Of a DNA stretch of 64,000 bases, positions 141 through 33,928 are shown piece after piece. The position numbers were made by a program, and so were the translations under genes. The notes beneath the pieces were generated by a model. That model did not search any database and was not told the origin of the DNA. It saw only the letters and a list, made by a program, of their open reading frames with translations. Source of the stretch: Diplosphaera chodatii (taxonomy: Eukaryota > Chlorophyta > Trebouxiophyceae > Prasiolales > Stichococcaceae). Every line of letters begins with the position of its first letter. Positions within the stretch are counted from its first letter, which is position 1. The DNA lies in the NCBI GenBank assembly GCA_032358165.1, contig JAALGY010000032.1:3720001-3784000 (forward strand), given 5' to 3'.

Positions 141-3100
141 GGGGCACTCGTTCTGGCGGTCGTCGCTGCCGCGCTGCTTGCAGCGGCCGCACCCGCGGTG
201 AGCACTGGTTCAAATAAATTGAGCACGTGCTGGCTGCGGCGTCTGGCCTGCTTGCTCGATGATGCCTGTGCCACATGCCGGTTGGTCAAACCAGCGAGCT
301 GCTGCAATTACCACCACGCCCGGGACTCTTGACGTGGCACCGGCCGCATTGTAGGCAGCCGTCAACGACGTGGATGTGCTCAACTTCGCATTGAACCTGG
401 AGTACCTCGAGGTGAGTCGGACGCCCGGTGGCAGTGCAGCAGTCCGACATGGCGACTACTGTTTTTTGTCCGATTACGCGTCGAACGCCAGTGAGTCAGC
501 CTCACGGTTGTCGTTGCCTGTCTGCAGGGCGAGTTCTACGCCTTGTGAGTCCTCTGGCACGACCCGTGCCGGCTCCTGCCGTGGCTGGATGTACTGCTTC
601 ATTGCTCACACTTTGCACTGCATTGCCTGGAACTTCGTGACAGCAGACACGTGTAACCGCTACGCGGTGCTGACTGAACTGACGGTCATTGTCAACCCTG
701 CCTGCAGCGCTGTCTACGGAAAGGGCCTGCCGGCAAACCTGAGGTGTGCTGTGCTGAGTTCCCCTTCAGAAGCCGAACGGCTGCCCATCCGACAAGTGCC
801 CATCGTCAGCCAAAGAATAAAACGTGCTCATACAAGCTTCCGAAACGTGGACAGCAGCGGCATCTGGCAGCAAGCGACACCGTGTGAGTCCTGATGCAGG
901 GGTGGCGGCCCGCCCTCCATCGGTGGCAAGAAGTACAAGTTCAACACCGAGCTCGTCGGGGTGCGGCATGGCCTGCAGTGCACCTCCTAGGCCATCATCC
1001 TGTTCGTCAAGTGTCCAAACGCTGCAAGCTCCTGTTTGCCGGAGTACCAGACATGACGTGTTGAGCCCCTTCCCCTGCGGCGCATGAGCTGTCTGAGCAC
1101 CCCCCATCCCCTGCTGGCGGAATTCTAGCTGGCCCGCTGTTGGGCTGTGCAGTGCTGGGCTGCCCGCATCAGGCTGCAGGCACCCGAGGGGATGTGGCAC
1201 AACCGGTACAAGGACTCAGAACCGAGAATCAGTGTCCTCCTTGCTGCAGCGCATCGCCGTCGAGATCGCCCAGGACGAGATTGCCCACGTCAAGTTCCTG
1301 CGCGCGGCGCTCGGCCGCGCAGCCGCCAGGATGCCCAGGATCAACATGTGAGTCGCATGTCGATGGCCGACATCCATGGCCAACGTCATCGCTGATGAGT
1401 TGTGACAGGACACCACTGGACACCACTTGTGTCAGCTGTCTAGTCCTGCACAACAGTGGCGATTGTGTTGAACCCATGCGCATCTCATTGTTGATGTGCA
1501 TGCCCATATCTGGCTGAGCTGTGGCTGCATGTAGCAGCTTCCATGATGCCAGCACATACAGAGGTCTATGGAAGTCGTCCCACACTGCTGCGCCCTGCCC
1601 TGCAGCGGCACCGCATTCTCCGACGCCGCCGACGCCGCGCTGATGACCAAGCTGAACCCGCGCTTCACCCCCTACCTCAACCAGCCGCAGGACCTGATCT
1701 TCCTGCACGGCGCCTTCATCTTCGAGGACGTGGGCGTGACCGCCTACAAGGTGCAGACAAGAACTTGCTGAGCATGTTGCACTATGGTCATGCCAAGGGC
1801 TCAGGCGGCACCACAACTCACCGCCTGCAGCATGCACCTCCAGTTGTGTCTCGGTTGAAGTGCCTTGCGCACATGCCTTGTGCCGCTGCTGACAGACTGG
1901 TTTCGCACCTGTTGCATAGGGCGCCGCCCCGCTGATCGCCAGCAAGGCCTACCTGAGCGCCGCCGCCGGCATCCTGTCCGTCGAGGCATACCACGCAGGT
2001 AAAGTGACGAGTGTCTGCGGCATTTGATAGAATCGCCGCCACTGCATTGGCACACACCCTGCAAAAGTGTACGTTCTCGTCACCGTGCTGGCTCTGAGCC
2101 TATGCCATGCTCTGTGCCCGCAGGTGCCATCCGCACGCTGCTGTACGCGTCCCTGGCCACCAAGATCCAGCCGTACGCCGCCACGGTGCGCATCTATGCC
2201 CCCCTGATGTGATCTGGTGTCTCACGAAGCCGCGCCGTCTGTGAATCGCAGCAGAGCGTGCGCCTGCTCACAGCAGATCACCACCATTTCTCATTCCCTG
2301 AAACCCGCATCGCCTCGATCATGAAGTCTGGGGTTTTTAGGTGTGCCTTTGAGAACTGCCCCGCAGGTGCTGGACATCACGTGGGCCATCTCCCGCCTGC
2401 GCGGCAAGGTGGGCGGCGGCAAGGACCAGGGCCTGCAGTCCCCCCGCACCGGCGGCGCCAACATCGTGCCCGCCGACGGTGCGACCCCTTTCAGGATCCA
2501 GGGTTTAGGGGACCGAACAGCGGGGTCACGACTGGGGTCGATCCATGTACAAACTGGGAACTCGCAGTCCTGGGCCATCTGAGTTGATTGCATCTTCGTC
2601 ACCGCACCTGCTCACTGCTTGGAGCTGTGTGGCCGGCGGCTTGGGCACAGCAGATGCCAAGTATGTTGTGCAACTGCTTGGTTTCGCGGTTGTGCCTGCC
2701 CACCCTATGCTACTACGTGCTGAAGGATCTGAGCATGCTGCTATACAGGCAACTCGGTGGCCTTCGGCCGCACCACCAGCCAGGTGCTGCGCATCGTGTA
2801 CCTGGGCGGCGCGTCCAGGGGGTGAGTCATATTCCTGTATCCAGGATCCAGCCTCAGATAGCTAGCCCATATTCACGTGTTCTGCATGCACCGTGTGCGA
2901 TCCTGCTGCAGCGACCTTGTGCTCTTGAGGCTGGCTGAACCGTTCTGTCTCGCTGTGCAGTGGCTTCTTCCCCGACGGCCTCACCGGCACCATCAAGGTG
3001 AGCAGTCAAAGCAGGAGCCTGCATCACTTTTGAGCTGATGCAAGGCATGTATGTCAGGAAGCGCATTCAGGCGCCACTGATGACTGGTGCATGCTCGCGG

Positions 3101-3161
3101 GATGGCTCGTCACGATTGGGGGTTCTGACCAGCCTGCCTGTGCGCACTGCAGACCGCTTGA
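141..3161 (+). CDS. Ferritin-like desiccation-related protein, copy 1 (5' partial)
   Basis: Spliced gene of the Ferritin_2 / PCC13-62 desiccation-related family. Visible exons give, in order: a hydrophobic Ala/Leu-rich signal segment (141-197); a first helix containing [14 protein letters not shown] followed by [18 protein letters not shown] (707-742); [14 protein letters not shown] (about 900-950); [18 protein letters not shown] (about 1262-1312); an [18 protein letters not shown] exon; [12 protein letters not shown]; a helix with [25 protein letters not shown]; a [18 protein letters not shown] exon; and [12 protein letters not shown] ending TA-stop at 3159-3161. The ExxH-type pairs (DEIAH, EAYH) are the expected di-metal ligands. 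By comparison with the downstream copy, the ATG exon lies left of the window. Family role: secreted or vesicular stress protein; biochemical activity is not established. Confidence 0.85.
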
Positions 3162-3949
3162 GGGCAACTACATGTCTCCGCCTCACTGCTGGAGGGCGAG
3201 CTGGCGTTTTGACGCCATGCTGCGGCATTCAGTGCCGTTTGCGTCGGAGGCCAACAACTCAATCTGCAGACTTCAGTTACTGTAGCAGACCGTGAAACAC
3301 CGAGCATTTTTGCATGGACATATCTAGGCAGGCCCGAGGTTTCTGTCAGTCATTTTGGTCTCTATGGTCCACAGTATCCACTTGCATTTGATTGCTCTGC
3401 CTGACTACTGTCAACTCGCCAACCTACGGTTGTGTTGAAAACTGGGTGCAATTGCTGGTTCAGACACGCACCTTCGCACGTGGCACTTACTTTCAGGCAT
3501 AAGCAGCAGCAGCTAGCAGCCCCTCATCAGTCACCACAAGGTGCCACGTACATCGCATCTGGTCCGAGCCCCTCTGACCCACACATGTGACTGTCGCTTC
3601 GACAAGCGCCAACATTGAAGACTTGAGACTCGTTACAGCATCAGTTGGTACCTGCAATGACCTCGTCCCCCGCCTTACAAAGCCACGAGAATCTATCCGA
3701 CAGGAATATAAAAACCTTGGATGTGGCAGCCGGGGCAGCAGCACCACAACGCCCTGGATGCTCTCACTTTTCAGCACATCCGCATGTTTGCGCGGTACTG
3801 AAGTCAGAACTTTGCAGTAGCTCACCTGCACAACTCATCAGCACACTCTCAGAACCGGACGTGACGGCACTGCGCTCGCATCTACATCACAGCACGCGCA
3901 ATACCTTCCCGTGCCCACCGCCTGTGCCAGACAGGTGTCGCAGGCCAAC
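3162..3949. other. Intergenic gap between tandem ferritin-like genes
   Basis: About 790 bases after the stop of copy 1 and before the ATG of copy 2. I see no coding exon supported by homology or consistent splice sites. It should hold the 3' UTR of copy 1 and the promoter of copy 2. Confidence 0.5.
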
Positions 3950-6900
3950 ATGAAGGTGAGATGATCCCGCACTGCCTTTGCGCGCTGTTGATCGCTCCAG
4001 ATAGGTGCGCAGCGGGTGAACCCCGAGCATGCGGCTGCGTGGGCTGTTATTCGTCGCGTTGCGACCCATGCGCCAACTAGCGTGCCGGACACGGCACAAA
4101 TGATGACATGCTGTGCTACATGCCATCGGGACCCCTGGCAACATGCGCACAGCCAAGCGTAAGCACTGCACCTGCCGCACAAACTCCCACAGGCTCAGAT
4201 TTGTTTCTGCGCCCTGGTCCCATATTCGTCCCAAATAGATGTTCAGGCACAGTACGCAGATACGTATTGCAGTTGTGCATGGCATTTTCGCGGAGTCAGG
4301 CGCAAAGTCGTGCCCAGGTGCCGGGCAAGCGTGCCCAGCTCTATCTCCTGCTGGCAGGGCCCAGTCAGCATGATCAGGCATGCACGGCAGCCTGACGCCA
4401 GCTGCTGTACTACAAGCAGGTGGCCCTGGTCGCAGCCGTGGCCGCCGCGCTTCTGGCGGTGGCGGCCGTCACGCCCGTGGTGAGCCGCATGACGAATGGC
4501 AACCTTTCCCTTGCGTCAGCCACAGACGTTACTCCATAGCAGATACACCACTTGACGCCCATACTGGTTGATGTATGTGATTTATTCTGCTGTATAGGCC
4601 TCTCAGGGGGTCACGGATGTGGACATCCTCAACTTCGCGCTGAACCTTGAGTAAGGGACCCCGGCTCTGAGCACTTGCACCTCCGTTGCCATGCATGCAT
4701 CTTTTGATCAGCACGCGTGTCGCGCCCTGCCTTGTCGCACGCACTTATCACTGATATAGAATTTGCGATGCGGTTTAGGTACCTGGAGGCCGAGTTCTAC
4801 CTGTACGCCGTGACCGGCTCTGGCATCCCCAGCCAGTACCGGTGGGTGCACCCTTGAGCAGGGTTTTGACACCTGCACTGCAAGCTGCCGCAGTCGCCCG
4901 CCTGCCACATGCCAATGGCAGCTCGCCGTGCGTCACAGCTCTCCGTGACAAGCAGCCTTTGATTGTGGTGTGCACATGCAGCGGCGGTGGCCCCCGCTCG
5001 ACTGGTGGCAGGGAGGCTGACTTCTGCCGCAAGAGCGTCAAGGTACGTGCAGCCTTACCTGACCAGCTTTGTGGAAGACCGCCGAGTAGTCAACTCGCAC
5101 GCGTCGCCGCCGCTCAGCCCCTGACCTCCTGTATGTCTGCAAATGCAACACCAAGGTGCCGCGCAGCCCCGCCATCCCAGAGGCCACCAACAACAGATGA
5201 TGACTGCCTGTACCAATCGTGCATAGTGTTGCTGCGCTGCAGAGGATCGCCACGGAGATCGCCACCGACGAGCTCAACCACGTCATCTTCCTGCGGACCG
5301 CCCTTGGCAGCGCTGCCGTGCCCATTCCGCTGCTGAACATGTGCGCATGCCTGACCAGCGTGGCAGATCCGCTGGTGCAGCCAGAGCCTGTGTCAGTCGC
5401 CACTTTGGAGGGTTGAGAGCCAGCCATGTCTGCGTGCTGTGTAACATCTATATGTGGCTCTACGCCTGGGCAGGCAGGGCTGCCTGTCGTCAAGGTCCGT
5501 GCTGTATCCGCTCAACCCACAAACGACGAGTTCTCTGCACCGCAGTGGAACCGCGTTCGCTGATGCCGCCGATGCCGCGCTGAGCACCAAGCTGAGGCCG
5601 CGCTTCTCTCCGTACCGCGAGAGCGACTACGACCTGCTGTTCCTGCACGGTGCGCCCCGCATTACGTTTTGCCGTACAGCGCAGCACAGCTTGCTCAGTC
5701 TTCATAACATGCAGGTTGGGACATGTTGCCATGACTGCCGCTGTGCATGGCATGCTTGGCTGTGGTCATGTGACACCGCTGCTGCTGCGCCTCCAGGCGC
5801 CTTCATCTTCGAGGACGTGGGTGTCACCGCCTACAAGGTGCGAAGCCCACCACCCTGCAGCGCCAATACCCTCGTCTGTGATGCACATGTCAGGGAACGC
5901 AGCGCTGTCTTCCTGTAGTGATGGCACACTTGCGGTCGCTGCCCTGCACAGCAGCTGCACCAGCACTGCAGCACGAAATTGCCAAGCGATGCTGGGGAGC
6001 TCCACGCCGAGCCCGCTGCGCCACCCCGCGGCCTGACCGCATGCCTGCGCACCGCAGGGCGCCGCCGCCCTGATCTCCAGCAAGGCCTACCTGGACGCCG
6101 CAGCCGGCATCCTGTCCGTGGAGGCGTACCACGCCGGCTCCATCCGCACCCAGCTGTACCAGAAGGTGCGCCTCGCAGCGTTTTCGAGATCGAGTCGTGG
6201 TGCCTGGCGCCCCGGCGATGTTCTCGAGGCTGCGCCCGCCCCGGATGGCGAGGGTGGCTGCTCCTCCCCTGCTGGGATGCCCCGCTGCTGACACCTGCAA
6301 CGCTGACCCAGCGCGCTCCGGAGCTGACGGCCCAAGTGCCCTGATCGGGGTGCGGTGTGGTGCAGGCCGACGTGAGGGTGCGCCCGTACGGCGTGCGCGT
6401 GAAGGACATCGTCGCCGCCATCTCCGCGCTGCGCGGCGCTGTTGGAGGTGAGGCGTCGGGCTGCCCCGACTGTCTGCCACAAAAACGCCGCAGACCATCC
6501 GCAGCTGTGGTGCACGTGCGCTGAGCTGTGTGCCCGACTGTGCGCTGAGTGCGCCCGACGAGGCGGCGCGTGCTGACAAGGGTCTTGCATCCCGGCAGGC
6601 GGCAAGGACGAGGGCATCGTGAAGGCCCGCGCCGCCAACATCGTGCCCACGGATGGTGCGCTGCCAGCACGGCGCATGCCCGTTCCATGTGTGCAGCTAC
6701 ACCCCTGAACAATGTGGCTTTGCAGGTCCACCACTGCCTGGGGCCAGCAAGTCCCGTCGGGGCTGGCTCCAGTTGGGCAGCCGTGAAGAGCGGTGTCCAA
6801 CGGCATCGGATGCTGCTGGTTACGCGCGACGGGCTGCTGCTCATCACCTTGATCGTGTGCCCCTGCAGGCAACAGCATCGCCTTCGGCCGCACGACGGCC

Positions 6901-21249: not shown

Positions 21250-21836
21250 TTGGGTATGTTGCTGATGGGAGTTCCCAGTCGGAGGGTTTGCCTATCAGCA
21301 CTTGTCCGTTACGCTTACAAATGTGCGACCAACTGCCAACTGCCGCTACTGCGCCTCACAATCAGACAAAGTAACGCGCGTCGCAGCTGCCAAAAATGCA
21401 GCCGTGCAGGCGCTCGCTGCCCATCATGTCAGGCCGGGGCTGTGGGCTGCACTTGCCGCCATTTGCGGCGAAATCTTGCGTGTAGCACACCTCACGGGCA
21501 TCAGACCGGCCGCAAAGCGCGGTGCCATGCGCGGCAGCCTACACTGGCTACTGAATCAATTTTACCCAGTTGCAAAGCTGCATATGTCAGCGCGTATCCT
21601 GCCATCGTCGTAAAATTTCACAACTGTCGGCAGCCGCATGCATGCATAAAGCACTTGCACACAACCTATGATGGCGGTCTGCGGCTGATTCAGCTGTTGC
21701 ATTCGTTAGTGAATGATACCAACGAGTAGCACTACATCGCATGGGATCGCAAGCCGAACTGCCAGTATGGTTGCTCAACGGTGTAGTCAGATCTGCACTG
21801 AGCGATGCCTGCCAGATATTGCCCGCGATATTGCCA
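21250..21836. other. GC-richer internal segment of the TIR element
   Basis: This block is closer in base composition to the host than the AT-rich ends. Open frames of 100-159 codons exist here (for example 21302-21613 with AVQALAAHHVRPGLWAALAA), but none resembles a transposase or any known family. It may be a captured host fragment or the remnant of an older element interior. Confidence 0.35.
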
Positions 21837-21841
21837 GTATA
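21837..21841. repeat. Target-site duplication, left copy
   Basis: GTATA immediately before the LTR that starts TGTAGAGACC; matched by GTATA at 24875-24879. Confidence 0.9.
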
Positions 21842-22036
21842 TGTAGAGACCTGTGCGTCCTAACAGGCTTGCTGGATAAGCTAACATACGTTACAGGATA
21901 GATCTAGTGTAATGTATATTGTGTATTCAAGTCAAGCACCGAAACAGAGTCAAAGCTGTGACAAGATCGATGGTCAATGCAGGTGCAGAGGAATCTATGA
22001 TAACTGACTGTGGCTGTAGTCCTAGTACTCACTACA
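21842..22036 (-). repeat. 3' LTR (195 bp)
   Basis: On the plus strand it runs TGTAGAGACC to CTCACTACA, with TG/CA termini. No difference was found from the copy at 24680-24874 when read through. For the minus-strand element this is the downstream LTR. Confidence 0.92.
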
Positions 22037-22048
22037 ATCCTCCCCGCT
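22037..22048 (-). other. Putative polypurine tract
   Basis: On the minus strand GCGGGGAGGAT lies directly upstream of the 3' LTR, the position and composition of a plus-strand primer. Confidence 0.6.
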
Positions 22049-22083
22049 AACTAAAATTCTGGCGTCCTCGCCACGTGTTATCT

Positions 22084-24210
22084 CTAGAAGTGATGGGTCT
22101 TCACATATTGCTTGGCGGCGGCATTTAGATTGCTGATTGGCTCCCAAGTATTGTGGTCGGCTGAATAGTCTTTCCATTTGATGTAGTATTCTTTGCGAAA
22201 GTTGCCTTTATGCTTGATTTTTCTGGTTGCAATAACGTCTTCCACCTCAAAGAAATTTAAAGGTAAGTCAATAACAACATCAGGTGGCTTTGGAGTTAGT
22301 GGCTCATCTTTGTCGGAAAGGTCGTCGTCTGTTGAAGGTCGGTAGTAAGGCGGCTTGGCTTTAGGCTCAGGTCGGTAGGTAGGCTCAACGGTAGGTGTTG
22401 GCGGCGGTGGTTTTGGCAATTCCGGTGAAGAAATATCGTTAACGTCAGTAACAACGTGCTTGCACAGTGTGTCAAGTCGATCAAGCGATACCTTGGCGGA
22501 GGCGGAGAGATCATCCACCACAATGTGCATATTCATCTCGATGTCCTGACCATATGCTGAATGGACGAGGAAGTCGTGCTTGTCTTTGAGATCTGCATAC
22601 TGTGGTGTCCAAATAGGTGAGGCGATGTCATTGATATAAACAACAAGTAAAGGTGAAGAAGGTATGCCAGGTTGCCAAAATGGCGTCAGATTGTAATCAT
22701 TAATGAAAGGCATTCCCAAAATAAGTTCATGTGTGCTATCAGGCATATCTGCCACGAAGAACTTTCTTTGCTGGTGTTCAACACCGATTTGAGAAATAGC
22801 AAAATTGACGATGACATATTCATTGCAATTGTGCTTAGATTTATTCGCCAAAGAAAGAGTTCTCAAAGTTGCACATTGATAGCGTGGCAGTTTAAGTTTG
22901 TCAGCAATATCAGGTCGAATCAGATCTGCAGATGCGCCGGTGTCAATAATAGAAGTAAATTCTGAATTGTTCAAAGTCACCCCGATGGTCCATGGTGCCA
23001 TGGTTGGTGGGTCGTTGGAAATCGTTGCTTGTGTTGACGTGGAGTGGGTGTTGCAGTCGGTGTCGTCGCCAAAGAGTGACACTAGTGCCTCGGAAATGAC
23101 GCACTCCTCTTCTTCCTGAACTGGACCATATGTGAAAGATCGTACATTGGATTCAAAATCAATTGTGCTGGTCAACCCACTTGGCTCAAGAACGGGTGTG
23201 CTGATGTCCACTGCTGCCACGGTGATATTCGCTGGCCGCTCGGTGCTGTTATTGGAGTTGTTGGGATTACTGCTGGCAGAGCCGTCGTAGTGATGCTTGT
23301 TTCTGCGAGAAACATTGCCAGAGCCGTTAAACCGTGGAGGCATATTGTCTGTAAACTGCTGACCTTGGGGTCTGCCGAAGCGGCTGCGATATCCATTATT
23401 GATGTTGTTGACTTCCATTGGTACGGCGGTGTCATGGAATTGTAGAGACCGGTCTGGGTACGGCCTGTAAGCTGAATATTGTTGACGGTGGTAAAAAGGA
23501 CGTTCATCAAAGCTATGAGGAATATTGTGACGAGTGCGGGTGAAAATCATTTCGCTTTTAGAAGCAACTTGCATCGCGTGTGAAAGTGTCGTGCAGTTTT
23601 CCATTATCACTTCACGTGCTAGCCCATCTTTCAAGCCATGTATATACTTGTCAAGCTTCTCATCCTCTTGCATGTTACGTACCAAGGTGATGGTCTTCAG
23701 GAATTCTGAGTTGAAATCTTGGACAGATCCACGTTGCTTGATGTGGTGCAACTTGTCCCTAGCCATGGCTGGTGCTGTGATAGGCTGAAAAGTGTCAATC
23801 AAATCCTTGCAGAATGATGGCCAGGAGTCCAGGACACCAGCAGCGTGCATGTCTTGAACCCTGTGCTCATACCACACAGCGGCAGTCTCGATTAAATACG
23901 TGCTGCCAAATGCTACCCACCGCTCTGGATCAGCATTAGTAGCCTCCAAATATTTGGTCAAAGTGAAGATCCAAGAGCCCAGATGCATGGTGTCGCCGTG
24001 CCCAGGAAAAGGTCGAGGTTTGTTGGCATGCGCCATTGACTTGGTGCTCTCTCGCATAGTTGCCTGCTGCAGCTGTGCTTTAACAGTAGAAAGCTCAGTT
24101 CTCATCTCACTGAAAGATGCAGCAGCAGATGCTAAGTCCTTTTGCATTTGATCCCATTCCTCTCGTGAAGGAGTCTGACTAACACCAGTGTCCATACCGA
24201 CGCCTGCCAT
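22084..24210 (-). CDS. Gag-protease-chromodomain polyprotein of LTR retrotransposon
   Basis: Uninterrupted 708-residue ORF from ATG 24210. Residues about 10-50 are helical. About 70-240 form a Retrotrans_gag-type capsid region (for example AVWYEHRVQDMHAAGVLDSW and FNSEFLKTITLVRNM). About 240-340 is Asn/Arg/Tyr-rich without a CCHC zinc knuckle. A retropepsin-like domain has the active site IIDTGASADLI near residue 420 and a later LILGMPF. Residues about 590-645 are Pro-rich, and the last 60 form a chromodomain (FFEVEDVIATRKIKHKG, YYIKWKDYSADHNTWEP). In ordinary chromoviruses the chromodomain is the tail of integrase; here it follows Gag-protease directly. AT-rich codon use differs from host genes. 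Confidence 0.9.
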   Translation of the reverse strand: MAGVGMDTGVSQTPSREEWDQMQKDLASAAASFSEMRTELSTVKAQLQQATMRESTKSMAHANKPRPFPGHGDTMHLGSWIFTLTKYLEATNADPERWVAFGSTYLIETAAVWYEHRVQDMHAAGVLDSWPSFCKDLIDTFQPITAPAMARDKLHHIKQRGSVQDFNSEFLKTITLVRNMQEDEKLDKYIHGLKDGLAREVIMENCTTLSHAMQVASKSEMIFTRTRHNIPHSFDERPFYHRQQYSAYRPYPDRSLQFHDTAVPMEVNNINNGYRSRFGRPQGQQFTDNMPPRFNGSGNVSRRNKHHYDGSASSNPNNSNNSTERPANITVAAVDISTPVLEPSGLTSTIDFESNVRSFTYGPVQEEEECVISEALVSLFGDDTDCNTHSTSTQATISNDPPTMAPWTIGVTLNNSEFTSIIDTGASADLIRPDIADKLKLPRYQCATLRTLSLANKSKHNCNEYVIVNFAISQIGVEHQQRKFFVADMPDSTHELILGMPFINDYNLTPFWQPGIPSSPLLVVYINDIASPIWTPQYADLKDKHDFLVHSAYGQDIEMNMHIVVDDLSASAKVSLDRLDTLCKHVVTDVNDISSPELPKPPPPTPTVEPTYRPEPKAKPPYYRPSTDDDLSDKDEPLTPKPPDVVIDLPLNFFEVEDVIATRKIKHKGNFRKEYYIKWKDYSADHNTWEPISNLNAAAKQYVKTHHF

Positions 24211-24622
24211 CTTGCAAGGCTATTAAGTTGGTGTAGTGGAGCTCAAGTGCTTGTTTGTTATCTCTATAGATGGTTTTAAGTTTATTGTAGTTGGTTTTCT
24301 CAATTGAGGGTTGCTTACGAAACTTTCTACGAGTGCGGCAACTTGCTGCAGACTCCAAATATACTGTCAAGCGATCAATGATCTTGCTTGCAAGGTGCGC
24401 TTCTTTACTTATCTCAGTTTGATAGGCCTGAAGGTGTTTGTAGGCCGCTTGCTCTCGCTGAATTGCAGCTGCACGTGTCTTCTCGGTCAATGCCCTGACC
24501 AGTTCGCCAGGTTGCGGTGTTGATACACGCAACAGGTCTATGACGCTTGCTTTGATCAGCGCTTTGAACTCTATGCCAAGGTTTGCAACCAATATGCGGT
24601 TTGCAGCAGGGTGTGAAGGCAT
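24179..24622 (-). CDS. Retrotransposon ORF1, 147 residues, unknown function
   Basis: Starts at ATG 24622, 57 bases inside the 5' LTR, and ends within the start of the Gag ORF, overlapping it by 32 bases in a +1 relative frame. The product is rich in Lys, Arg, Gln and Glu with a likely alpha-helical or coiled-coil centre (QREQAAYKHLQAYQTEISKE), then a basic stretch CRTRRKFRKQ. It matches no family I recognise. It could be a separate leader protein, or join Gag by frameshifting or splicing; an incidental frame is less likely given its length and position. Confidence 0.55.
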   Translation of the reverse strand: MPSHPAANRILVANLGIEFKALIKASVIDLLRVSTPQPGELVRALTEKTRAAAIQREQAAYKHLQAYQTEISKEAHLASKIIDRLTVYLESAASCRTRRKFRKQPSIEKTNYNKLKTIYRDNKQALELHYTNLIALQDGRRRYGHWC

Positions 24623-24661
24623 ACGGCACTTTCAATGGCTGCTCAAGTCAATACGCAACTT

Positions 24662-24677
24662 CGCGGCTGTCCCCCCA
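24662..24677 (-). other. Putative primer-binding site
   Basis: Reading the minus strand, the 5' LTR is followed by AT and then TGGGGGGACAGCC, starting with TGG as expected for pairing with a tRNA 3'-CCA end. The donor tRNA was not identified. Confidence 0.6.
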
Positions 24678-24679
24678 AT

Positions 24680-24874
24680 TGTAGAGACCTGTGCGTCCTA
24701 ACAGGCTTGCTGGATAAGCTAACATACGTTACAGGATAGATCTAGTGTAATGTATATTGTGTATTCAAGTCAAGCACCGAAACAGAGTCAAAGCTGTGAC
24801 AAGATCGATGGTCAATGCAGGTGCAGAGGAATCTATGATAACTGACTGTGGCTGTAGTCCTAGTACTCACTACA
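24680..24874 (-). repeat. 5' LTR (195 bp)
   Basis: Identical partner of 21842-22036. On the minus strand it carries the promoter of the element; transcription would run toward lower coordinates into the two ORFs. Confidence 0.92.
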
Positions 24875-24879
24875 GTATA
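24875..24879. repeat. Target-site duplication, right copy
   Basis: GTATA immediately after the LTR ending CTCACTACA; five-base duplication typical of Ty3/Copia-type integrases. Confidence 0.9.
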
Positions 24880-24994
24880 TTACGTGTCAACTACTTCTAT
24901 ATTGACCCGAGAATTATTGGCAATATATTTTTCCGTCCGAATTATTGCATTAACCAGCTGGTTCCAGGCCCATATTGCCCCCCAATATATTGCT

Positions 24995-25022
24995 TAATAT
25001 ATTGGGTGTTCCACTGGTAGAG
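24995..25022 (-). repeat. Right terminal inverted repeat
   Basis: The reverse complement reads CTCTACCAGTGGAACACCC then AATATATT, matching the left terminus at 20857. It defines the outer boundary of the interrupted element. Confidence 0.7.
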
Positions 25023-25347
25023 AAAGCATGCTGCTGAGCAGCTGGACGACGGATTCGCCTACTGCACAGTGTCGTCCTGATTTTGCGAACGCCTGCCTCA
25101 CGCACAGCCCCACGTAACATCGATGGTGCCTGCCATGCTGTTCTGAGTTACTGGTGCATCGGCAGTTTGGTAATCTCTCTGCTACACCTGCAATGCCTGC
25201 AACATGCGTCATGACGCCAGGATCCCATGCACAATGCAATGCTTACGAAGGTGCATGCATGCATCCATGCATGCATGGGTCCAGTACTGCAATGCAAGAG
25301 AAGCTTAATCGTGATCTGATATCGACAGCTTGCGTGATTACTGCAGC

Positions 25348-28870: not shown

Positions 28871-30058
28871 TCAATCTGTCTTCGCAACATCTGCCTTGCC
28901 AGGCGCTGCAACCTCCTCCTTTTTCGGGGCATCCGGGTCGCACACCTTGCACGCTGGGCGGCAGTACTTCAGCATGTAGGTCGGGTTCGCCTTGCACTCG
29001 CCAACGGCTGCCCACTCTTCACACCTATCATCGGCGTCAACACAGTCGCCCCACTTGGCTCGCTGTTCCTCTGCTGATAGCCCAAATGCGCCTGTGTGTA
29101 TCCATTTCGTTGCGGACCACTTCTCGCCCTTGAGGGTGGGGCAGCTGCCGTGCATGGAGGTGGGGTCCTCCTCGCCGTTGGGCTTGAGGCTATAAAACAG
29201 AAGCGCATCCCCCCGCACTGCCTTCACCGCAAGCCCCTCCTTGGCGCAGTCCGACCACTCAGGTCCTGTGACCTTGTTCTCCGCCTTGGGAAACACCGTC
29301 TCACCGCCCACCTCTGGAGTCGTCAGGTACATGAGGACGGTGGCGATGCGCTGGCCGCCGTTCTCAGGCCGCGCATTGACCTTGTCATGGAAGTAGTCCT
29401 CATGCGGCTTGTACTGCTGCCCATTCTGGTAGTGCAGGATCTGCAGGCCCTCGCCATTCTCGACAGGCAGGAAGCTGACATGCGACAGCCGCTTCTCAAT
29501 GCGCCTGATGGTCTCGTCCTGGCCGCGCGAGTAGAACGAGCCGGTCGAGGTGCGCACATCGCTGTCCACGCTGCCGCCCGTGCTGCTGTCCACCACGGTG
29601 CTCTTGGTCATGCGCTCTCGCGCGTTGTTGATGAGGTACTCGCACTCCTCCGCGGAAAGCAGTCCCTTGAAGATGAACGCCCTTGGCGACCAGCTGATCT
29701 GCTTGACCTCCCCTCGCCACATCTCCTTGCCAGACTCGCCAAAGCCAATGGTGGCCGGGTCATCAGCCAGCGGCTGCTGCTGCGGCAGCTCGCCCTTCCA
29801 GCCGGGGAACCGGTCTGTGTCCTCGATGTACTCATTCGCTGGCGCCGCTGAAACGATGGCCAGGCTGGCTGCCAAGACAAAGGCAGCTGTGACCACCATT
29901 ACGGCATTGGCTGGGCGTGTCACCGCTGCTCTGACGGATAGAGCGACAGGTGGCCGCCTATGTCTGCTGCCCAGCCGCATGGATGTAGGAGGGTTGTGAC
30001 CGGCCAAACCGGCAACTTGGACCCCGAAATGTGGGCTGCTGATGTAAGTCACTGCCAA
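28871..30058 (-). CDS. Prolyl 4-hydroxylase with C-terminal ShKT domain, intronless
   Basis: Single open frame of 395 residues in an intron-dense region. After a basic N-terminus there is a signal anchor (about residues 52-72, MVVTAAFVLAASLAIVSAA). The 2-oxoglutarate/Fe(II) dioxygenase domain (about 115-320) has ISWSPRAFIFKGLLSAEECE, the iron ligands His and Asp in YKPHEDYFHD (about residue 220) and the distal His in TSMHGSCP (about 301), followed by KWSATKW, whose Lys binds 2-oxoglutarate. Residues about 338-377 hold six cysteines in ShKT spacing (CVDADDRCEEW...CRPACKVC). The tail is Lys-rich. It hydroxylates peptidyl proline in the ER/Golgi, in algae mostly on wall glycoproteins. The start could also be the ATG encoding MRLGSR. 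Confidence 0.95.
   Translation of the reverse strand: MAVTYISSPHFGVQVAGLAGHNPPTSMRLGSRHRRPPVALSVRAAVTRPANAVMVVTAAFVLAASLAIVSAAPANEYIEDTDRFPGWKGELPQQQPLADDPATIGFGESGKEMWRGEVKQISWSPRAFIFKGLLSAEECEYLINNARERMTKSTVVDSSTGGSVDSDVRTSTGSFYSRGQDETIRRIEKRLSHVSFLPVENGEGLQILHYQNGQQYKPHEDYFHDKVNARPENGGQRIATVLMYLTTPEVGGETVFPKAENKVTGPEWSDCAKEGLAVKAVRGDALLFYSLKPNGEEDPTSMHGSCPTLKGEKWSATKWIHTGAFGLSAEEQRAKWGDCVDADDRCEEWAAVGECKANPTYMLKYCRPACKVCDPDAPKKEEVAAPGKADVAKTD

Positions 30059-33928
<3,870 letters not shown>

Follow-up and report, generated by a model that had tools for sequence, protein, structure and literature searches.

Results

We analysed a stretch of 64,000 nucleotides from the green alga Diplosphaera chodatii, here called the window, which contains a long terminal repeat (LTR) retrotransposon of 3,033 bp at positions 21842–24874. 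The element lies on the minus strand and reads from 24874 to 21842. Its 5′ LTR (24680–24874, minus strand) and 3′ LTR (21842–22036, minus strand) comprise 195 bp each and are identical at 195/195 positions; their first letters are TGTAG and their last CTACA, giving the termini TG...CA. A target site duplication, GTATA, frames the insertion, with one copy at 21837–21841 and the other at 24875–24879. The polypurine tract (PPT), GCGGGGAGGAT (22037–22047, minus strand), adjoins the 3′ LTR. Just upstream of it stands GCGAGGACGCC, and the identical 11 letters precede the PPT of a chromovirus on contig C33 of the same genome. At the other end, a sequence resembling a primer binding site (PBS), TGGGGGGACAGCC (24665–24677, minus strand), starts with TGG and is separated from the 5′ LTR by two nucleotides (AT). 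A preliminary description of the window had listed identical LTRs, target duplications, PBS, PPT and two open reading frames (ORFs). All of these were confirmed except the PBS, for which the TGG-starting sequence is present but, since no tRNA was found to fit it, unproven.

ORF1 (24179–24622, minus strand, 147 aa) is an open frame that shares 32 nt with ORF2. It showed no Pfam family above the cut-off, and its matches within the genome were confined to four copies of the element. ORF2 (22084–24210, minus strand) encodes a protein of 708 aa in which Gag and protease are followed by a remnant of reverse transcriptase (RT) and a chromodomain. Profile matches identified a Ty3-type capsid of Gag (23533–24048, minus strand, residues 58–229 of the stop-to-stop frame; PF19259, Ty3_capsid, E=3.7e-13; also Retrotrans_gag, E=7.6e-11), a retropepsin-like protease with the motif DTGA (22699–22983, minus strand; PF13650, Asp_protease_2, E=1.8e-9; PF13975, E=6.6e-8) and a C-terminal chromodomain of the integrase-tail type (22105–22251, minus strand; PF00385, Chromo, E=1.3e-13). 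No RT, ribonuclease H (RNase H) or integrase family was among the eight listed at E≤1 for ORF2 of the window copy, that is, the copy of the element in the window, and the ORF2 protein has no CCHC zinc knuckle. A structure model of the whole protein had a mean predicted local distance difference test score (pLDDT) of 29.6 and was not used. Thus the protein, with Gag, retropepsin and chromodomain but lacking RT, RNase H and integrase, is as first described. The accompanying statement that all of pol is missing proved slightly too strong, since the protease, an N-terminal stub of RT and the integrase-tail chromodomain remain and it is the RT, RNase H and integrase domains that are gone. That is, the element is not an autonomous chromovirus.

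The genome assembly that we searched comprises 85.6 Mb in 55 contigs (C8, C33 and so on in the following), and all match counts are lower bounds. The LTR gave eight matches, all of them within four copies of the element, and the internal part gave four. All four copies measure 3,033 bp and align without any indel; each has an LTR pair with 0/195 differences and two open ORFs. Their 5-bp target duplications differ (GTATA in the window, ATCGC, ACTTC and AGTAC elsewhere), and none of the six copy pairs shared a 16-mer in the flanks (1,305 bp on each side, both orientations). The copies on C26 and C18 differ at nine sites, the two C8 copies at three, and the two groups from each other at 44–46. 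The copy-specific variants found at positions 23 and 123 of the LTR are present in both LTRs of a copy, the pattern expected from reverse transcription. When the flanks of the window copy were joined, they matched C13:32841-33230 with 98% identity over 390 letters, straight across the junction, and 8 further places of 14 crossed it at 69–94%. The window copy was thus inserted within another dispersed repeat, of which related sites without the element exist. This host repeat (window positions 21600–25027 minus the element) has relatives on C13, C49, C33, C35, C32 and C12, and the similarity stops at about 25022–25027.

Judged by these comparisons, the element belongs to a real, young and mobile family of four copies, in agreement with the youth first ascribed to it. 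The separate target duplications of the four copies rule out a one-off dead deletion copy, and the unrelated flanks rule out a segmental duplication. What is expected of a semi-autonomous element, such as the TR-GAG elements reportedly described by Chaparro et al. in 2015, was found: several copies have moved, paired LTRs with a target duplication occur in all four, and an intact gag, here with protease, comes without RT, RNase H and integrase, the absence of these three being read in the window copy.

To relate ORF2 to other proteins, we scored the best 7,993 candidates of a protein database search; two proteins had E≤0.001. The related proteins compared here are called P0001 and P0002. A search with the protease segment alone recovered one protein from 185 candidates, P0002, and missed P0001, so the protein searches are not exhaustive. 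No relative was confirmed in viral contigs or prokaryote genome contigs. P0002 is a protease-RT protein related to ORF2, and a stretch of 57 residues before the chromodomain linker (22324–22494, minus strand) aligned with its RT N-terminus at a score of 107, compared to 33.4±6.4 for shuffled sequences (0/1000 as high). The same stretch scored 62 against the chromovirus on C15 (0/1000), 48 against that on C9 (8/1000) and 48 against that on C33 (16/1000). An N-terminal piece of RT thus lies to the left of a deletion. The element is itself a product of internal deletion, and the earlier view that it is unlike such a derivative is not supported.

P0001 (630 aa) is encoded on a contig of 2,069 bp and is 54% identical to the ORF2 protein over 84% of the latter. 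It ends before the chromodomain, either at a stop or at the contig end. Identities to the window protein amount to 37/63 in the N-terminal coil, 121/164 in the capsid, 67/162 in the next part, 84/145 in the protease and 34/82 in the linker. The RT stub of both proteins contains PPPPTP, where P0002 and the chromoviruses on C33, C9 and C15 have LPPxR forms. Linker scores were 148 between the window protein and P0001, 107 between the window protein and P0002, and 63 between P0001 and P0002. The common PPPPTP and these scores suggest that the window protein and P0001 descend from a common ancestor that was already pol-less. By this sequence evidence the pol-less form may be old.

Outside the family, the chromodomain matched the integrase tail of an element on C10 best (39% identity over 54 aa, E=1.1e-11), which supports its derivation from a chromovirus. 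The next match, the integrase tail on C9 (E=1e-5), was about level with two loci on C28 (E=1.3e-5) at which no integrase was seen. Among solved structures, the best match was Chromo domain-containing protein 1, presumably the histone reader Chp1. Structure alignment placed F654, W679 and Y682 at putative aromatic cage positions; all three are aromatic and unchanged in 4/4 copies, as is the DTGA aspartate of the protease. One of the two C8 copies (C8b) carries L695R inside the chromodomain.

The ratio of nonsynonymous to synonymous substitution rates (dN/dS) between the two copy groups was 0.56–0.59 for ORF2, with 11 synonymous and 22–23 other changes, and 0.29–0.39 for ORF1, with 7–8 changes. 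At this depth the changes are too few for selection to be read from dN/dS among the four copies, and for ORF2 they do not depart from a neutral simulation (2000 runs).

If RT and integrase are borrowed, the genome might hold their source. Five matches to the integrase zinc domain were found (C33, C34, C9, C15 and C26:4327618). Protease, RT and RNase H are present on C33 and C9, RT and integrase frames on C15. We searched the genome for a partner by LTR, PPT-LTR junction and PBS and found none. The junction pattern (up to three mismatches) gave 32 matches, of which four belong to junctions of the family itself and a fifth falls at the 5′ end of one C8 copy. The remainder look like chance, since a reversed control pattern gave 30. 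Neither a longer element carrying the LTR nor a full-length chromovirus sharing LTR, PBS and PPT, as the preliminary description had envisaged, was detected in the assembly. The PPT is similar in type to that of other elements found, but none of these shares the LTR and PBS. By these lower-bound counts the assembly thus holds four copies of the element, not a single one, and no near-identical full-length parent was found in it.

Further observations concern other elements and genes. On C10 (C10:2216001-2226000, about 2268–6466), a young LTR element has LTRs of 533 and 547 bp, with two repeat blocks each 100% identical, and a GCAGC duplication. One of its ORFs joins an integrase core to a chromodomain, another, of 420 aa, has no family match, and neither of the two contains an RT domain. 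An ORF of 276 aa without Pfam family (C9:1-9000, 5364–6191, minus strand) lies upstream of gag in a chromovirus of autonomous type that is cut by the contig end. Satellite arrays with a unit of about 336 bp lie beside chromoviruses near contig ends (L056 9000-9836, L060 2127-4841). The chlorophyll a/b-binding family gave 56 genome matches, which marks the host as a phototroph, and its genes score almost equally on the two members of the contig pairs C26/C27, C14/C24, C9/C31, C17/C45 and C25/C41, a pattern that a diploid, hybrid or duplicated genome would give. Within the window, an open frame at 28874–30064 (minus strand) combines 2OG-Fe(II) oxygenase and ShK domains; we take it to be prolyl 4-hydroxylase-like.

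Discussion

The element is very probably a low-copy semi-autonomous, chromovirus-derived Ty3/gypsy LTR retrotransposon that kept Gag, protease and chromodomain and borrows RT and integrase. The RT stub before the chromodomain is most simply read as the product of an in-frame deletion in an ancestor, which began shortly after the start of RT, stopped close to the integrase tail and fused the stub to the chromodomain. Particles built from the element's own Gag would then take up its RNA, and an autonomous Ty3 element would supply in trans the RT and integrase for reverse transcription and integration. Since its own copying and inserting enzymes are lost, the element probably obtains them from another element. 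This had been proposed before and is supported by a mobile family in which 4/4 copies stay open without those enzymes. Other Ty3 elements with RT in the genome (C33, C15 and C9) could act in trans. The chromodomain, on Gag or on part of Gag, probably remains folded and able to read histones, and could help to hold the particle or the complementary DNA (cDNA) at chromatin.

Several observations weigh against this interpretation. No partner emerged: a blastn comparison of the LTR with eight other Ty3-like loci gave 18 nt as best match (E=0.5), and the PBS is unlike those that could be read on C9 and C10 (TGGTTTCAGAGC), C15 (TGGTCTCAGAGCC) and C33 (TGGCCCTCCC). No tRNA fitting the PBS was found; ARAGORN predicted 0 tRNAs at the six other exact sites, and a genome scan with a tRNA-shaped pattern in which the acceptor stem was fixed also gave 0 matches. 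The changes in ORF2 fit neutrality (P=0.29 for at least 11 synonymous among 33 changes, P=0.35 for no stop). The protease alone is nearer to that of P0002 (67%) than to that of P0001 (57%) in a FastTree phylogeny of five sequences (window, P0001, P0002, C33 and C9, with a C8 copy left out; support 0.611), which weakly opposes a single old shared deletion. Finally, the linker of P0001 is similar to P0002 at the RT N-terminus (1/1000 shuffles as high) but does not exceed shuffles against C33, C9 and C15 (46, 263 and 464 of 1000). As for the partner, it may be missing from the assembly, and a shared partner serves to name a pair, not to define a gag without pol.

The alternative that survives best concerns the chromodomain, and we rate it only a little below even chances. 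The domain might be functionless, an unselected 3′ end of the deletion that persists since its frame happens to be open, with Gag and protease, or LTRs and a packaging signal, being all that matters. Changes indistinguishable from neutral ones and the substitution L695R within the chromodomain of C8b would be expected then, and P0001, ending where it does, offers no comparison of long-term conservation. However, the domain is still well matched by its profile and keeps aromatic residues at the cage positions in 4/4 copies. Moreover, the good conservation of Gag and protease between the window protein and P0001 shows that the remainder of the protein has been maintained.

Integration targeting is usually ascribed to integrase. 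A less probable, though by no means negligible, explanation is that the chromodomain works from the particle, where a Gag-protease-chromodomain protein would anchor the core or the cDNA on marked chromatin and thereby guide integration by the borrowed integrase. The aromatic cage positions and the structural match to Chromo domain-containing protein 1 are consistent with this idea. There is also precedent, in the excerpts available, for Gag-borne chromatin tethers: in murine leukaemia virus and foamy virus, parts of Gag attach to nucleosomes (PMC6021111, PMC12125541). Yet the protease could cut the chromodomain off, and the four flanks share no 16-mer, so that no targeting is seen (n=4). Chromatin targeting by a chromodomain-bearing Gag is best called possible. 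A long-lived pol-less lineage in which a working chromodomain lets the particle, rather than the borrowed integrase, choose the landing chromatin seems improbable to us.

It is also rather unlikely that pol was lost twice, with a recent deletion in a P0002-like element giving rise to the window family, and with P0001 being separate or not pol-less. The protease phylogeny, which joins the window protein with P0002, and the still recognisable RT stub favour two losses. Nevertheless, the window protein and P0001 have PPPPTP and MNM.I...DLS.S in common, both miss a stretch of about 24 columns of P0002, and their linkers give the highest score of the three pairs. A horizontal entry of the family, with the helper elsewhere or lost, is the least probable alternative: it would account for the missing partner and tRNA and for the lower GC content of the element (0.465; 0.47–0.48 at third codon positions of the ORFs, GC3) compared to C33, C15, C9 and C10 (0.545–0.58; GC3 of gag/pol frames 0.565–0.67), but a decayed gag relative on C38 (53% identical to P0001 over 89 aa, GC 0.471) indicates that the lineage was in the genome before.

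Under the favoured interpretation of a semi-autonomous element, a chromodomain that works on Gag-protease would mean that targeting is separated from catalysis. The element would then offer a way to ask directly whether a chromodomain on the particle can guide integration, and the low numbers (four copies, five integrase zinc-domain matches) make the search for a helper tractable.

Within the same genome, the chromoviruses on C33, C9 and C15 are close comparisons. Retropepsin and chromodomain occur in C33 and C9, a chromodomain in C15 and a Pfam gag in C33, which also has GAGGACGCC before its PPT, as in the element. All three differ from it in having RT and integrase, placed after the end of gag and ahead of the chromodomain, and in their LTRs and PBSs.

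Gag-only and Gag-protease semi-autonomous elements are already known, and the following comparisons go as far as the available excerpts of the sources. RLG_Sabrina_SA, termed semi-autonomous, and RLG_WHAM of wheat likewise belong to the Ty3/gypsy LTR elements and have an ORF for Gag-protease but neither RT nor integrase; however, they are high-copy and tied to the autonomous Wilma, and a chromodomain is not named for them there (PMC9744471). RLG_Quinta of wheat is a Gag-coding derivative of the CR-domain centromeric element RLG_Cereba; trans-mobilisation was proposed for Quinta, which has been long-lived (28–35 million years). Besides Gag, Quinta encodes a domain of unknown function, and it has LTR ends, PBS and PPT in common with its partner (PMC11302176); no comparable partner was detected for the element described here. 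In the lichen alga Asterochloris, RLG_Kyoko is a green-algal deletion derivative of the chromodomain element RLG_Beelzebufo that has Gag and lacks RT and integrase; it differs in that a GAG protein alone is described, in being centromere-specific, and in a PBS and PPT identical to its partner's (PMC12542154). TR-GAG elements are also LTR elements with gag and without pol, but in a Coffea study the group A chromodomain matched no non-autonomous element (PMC5818461). Among the matches listed from the open-licence literature, as excerpted, none was an element that lacks pol and has a chromodomain at the end of its Gag-protease. The integrase-tail chromodomain retained on Gag-protease is what sets this element apart from the known semi-autonomous kind.

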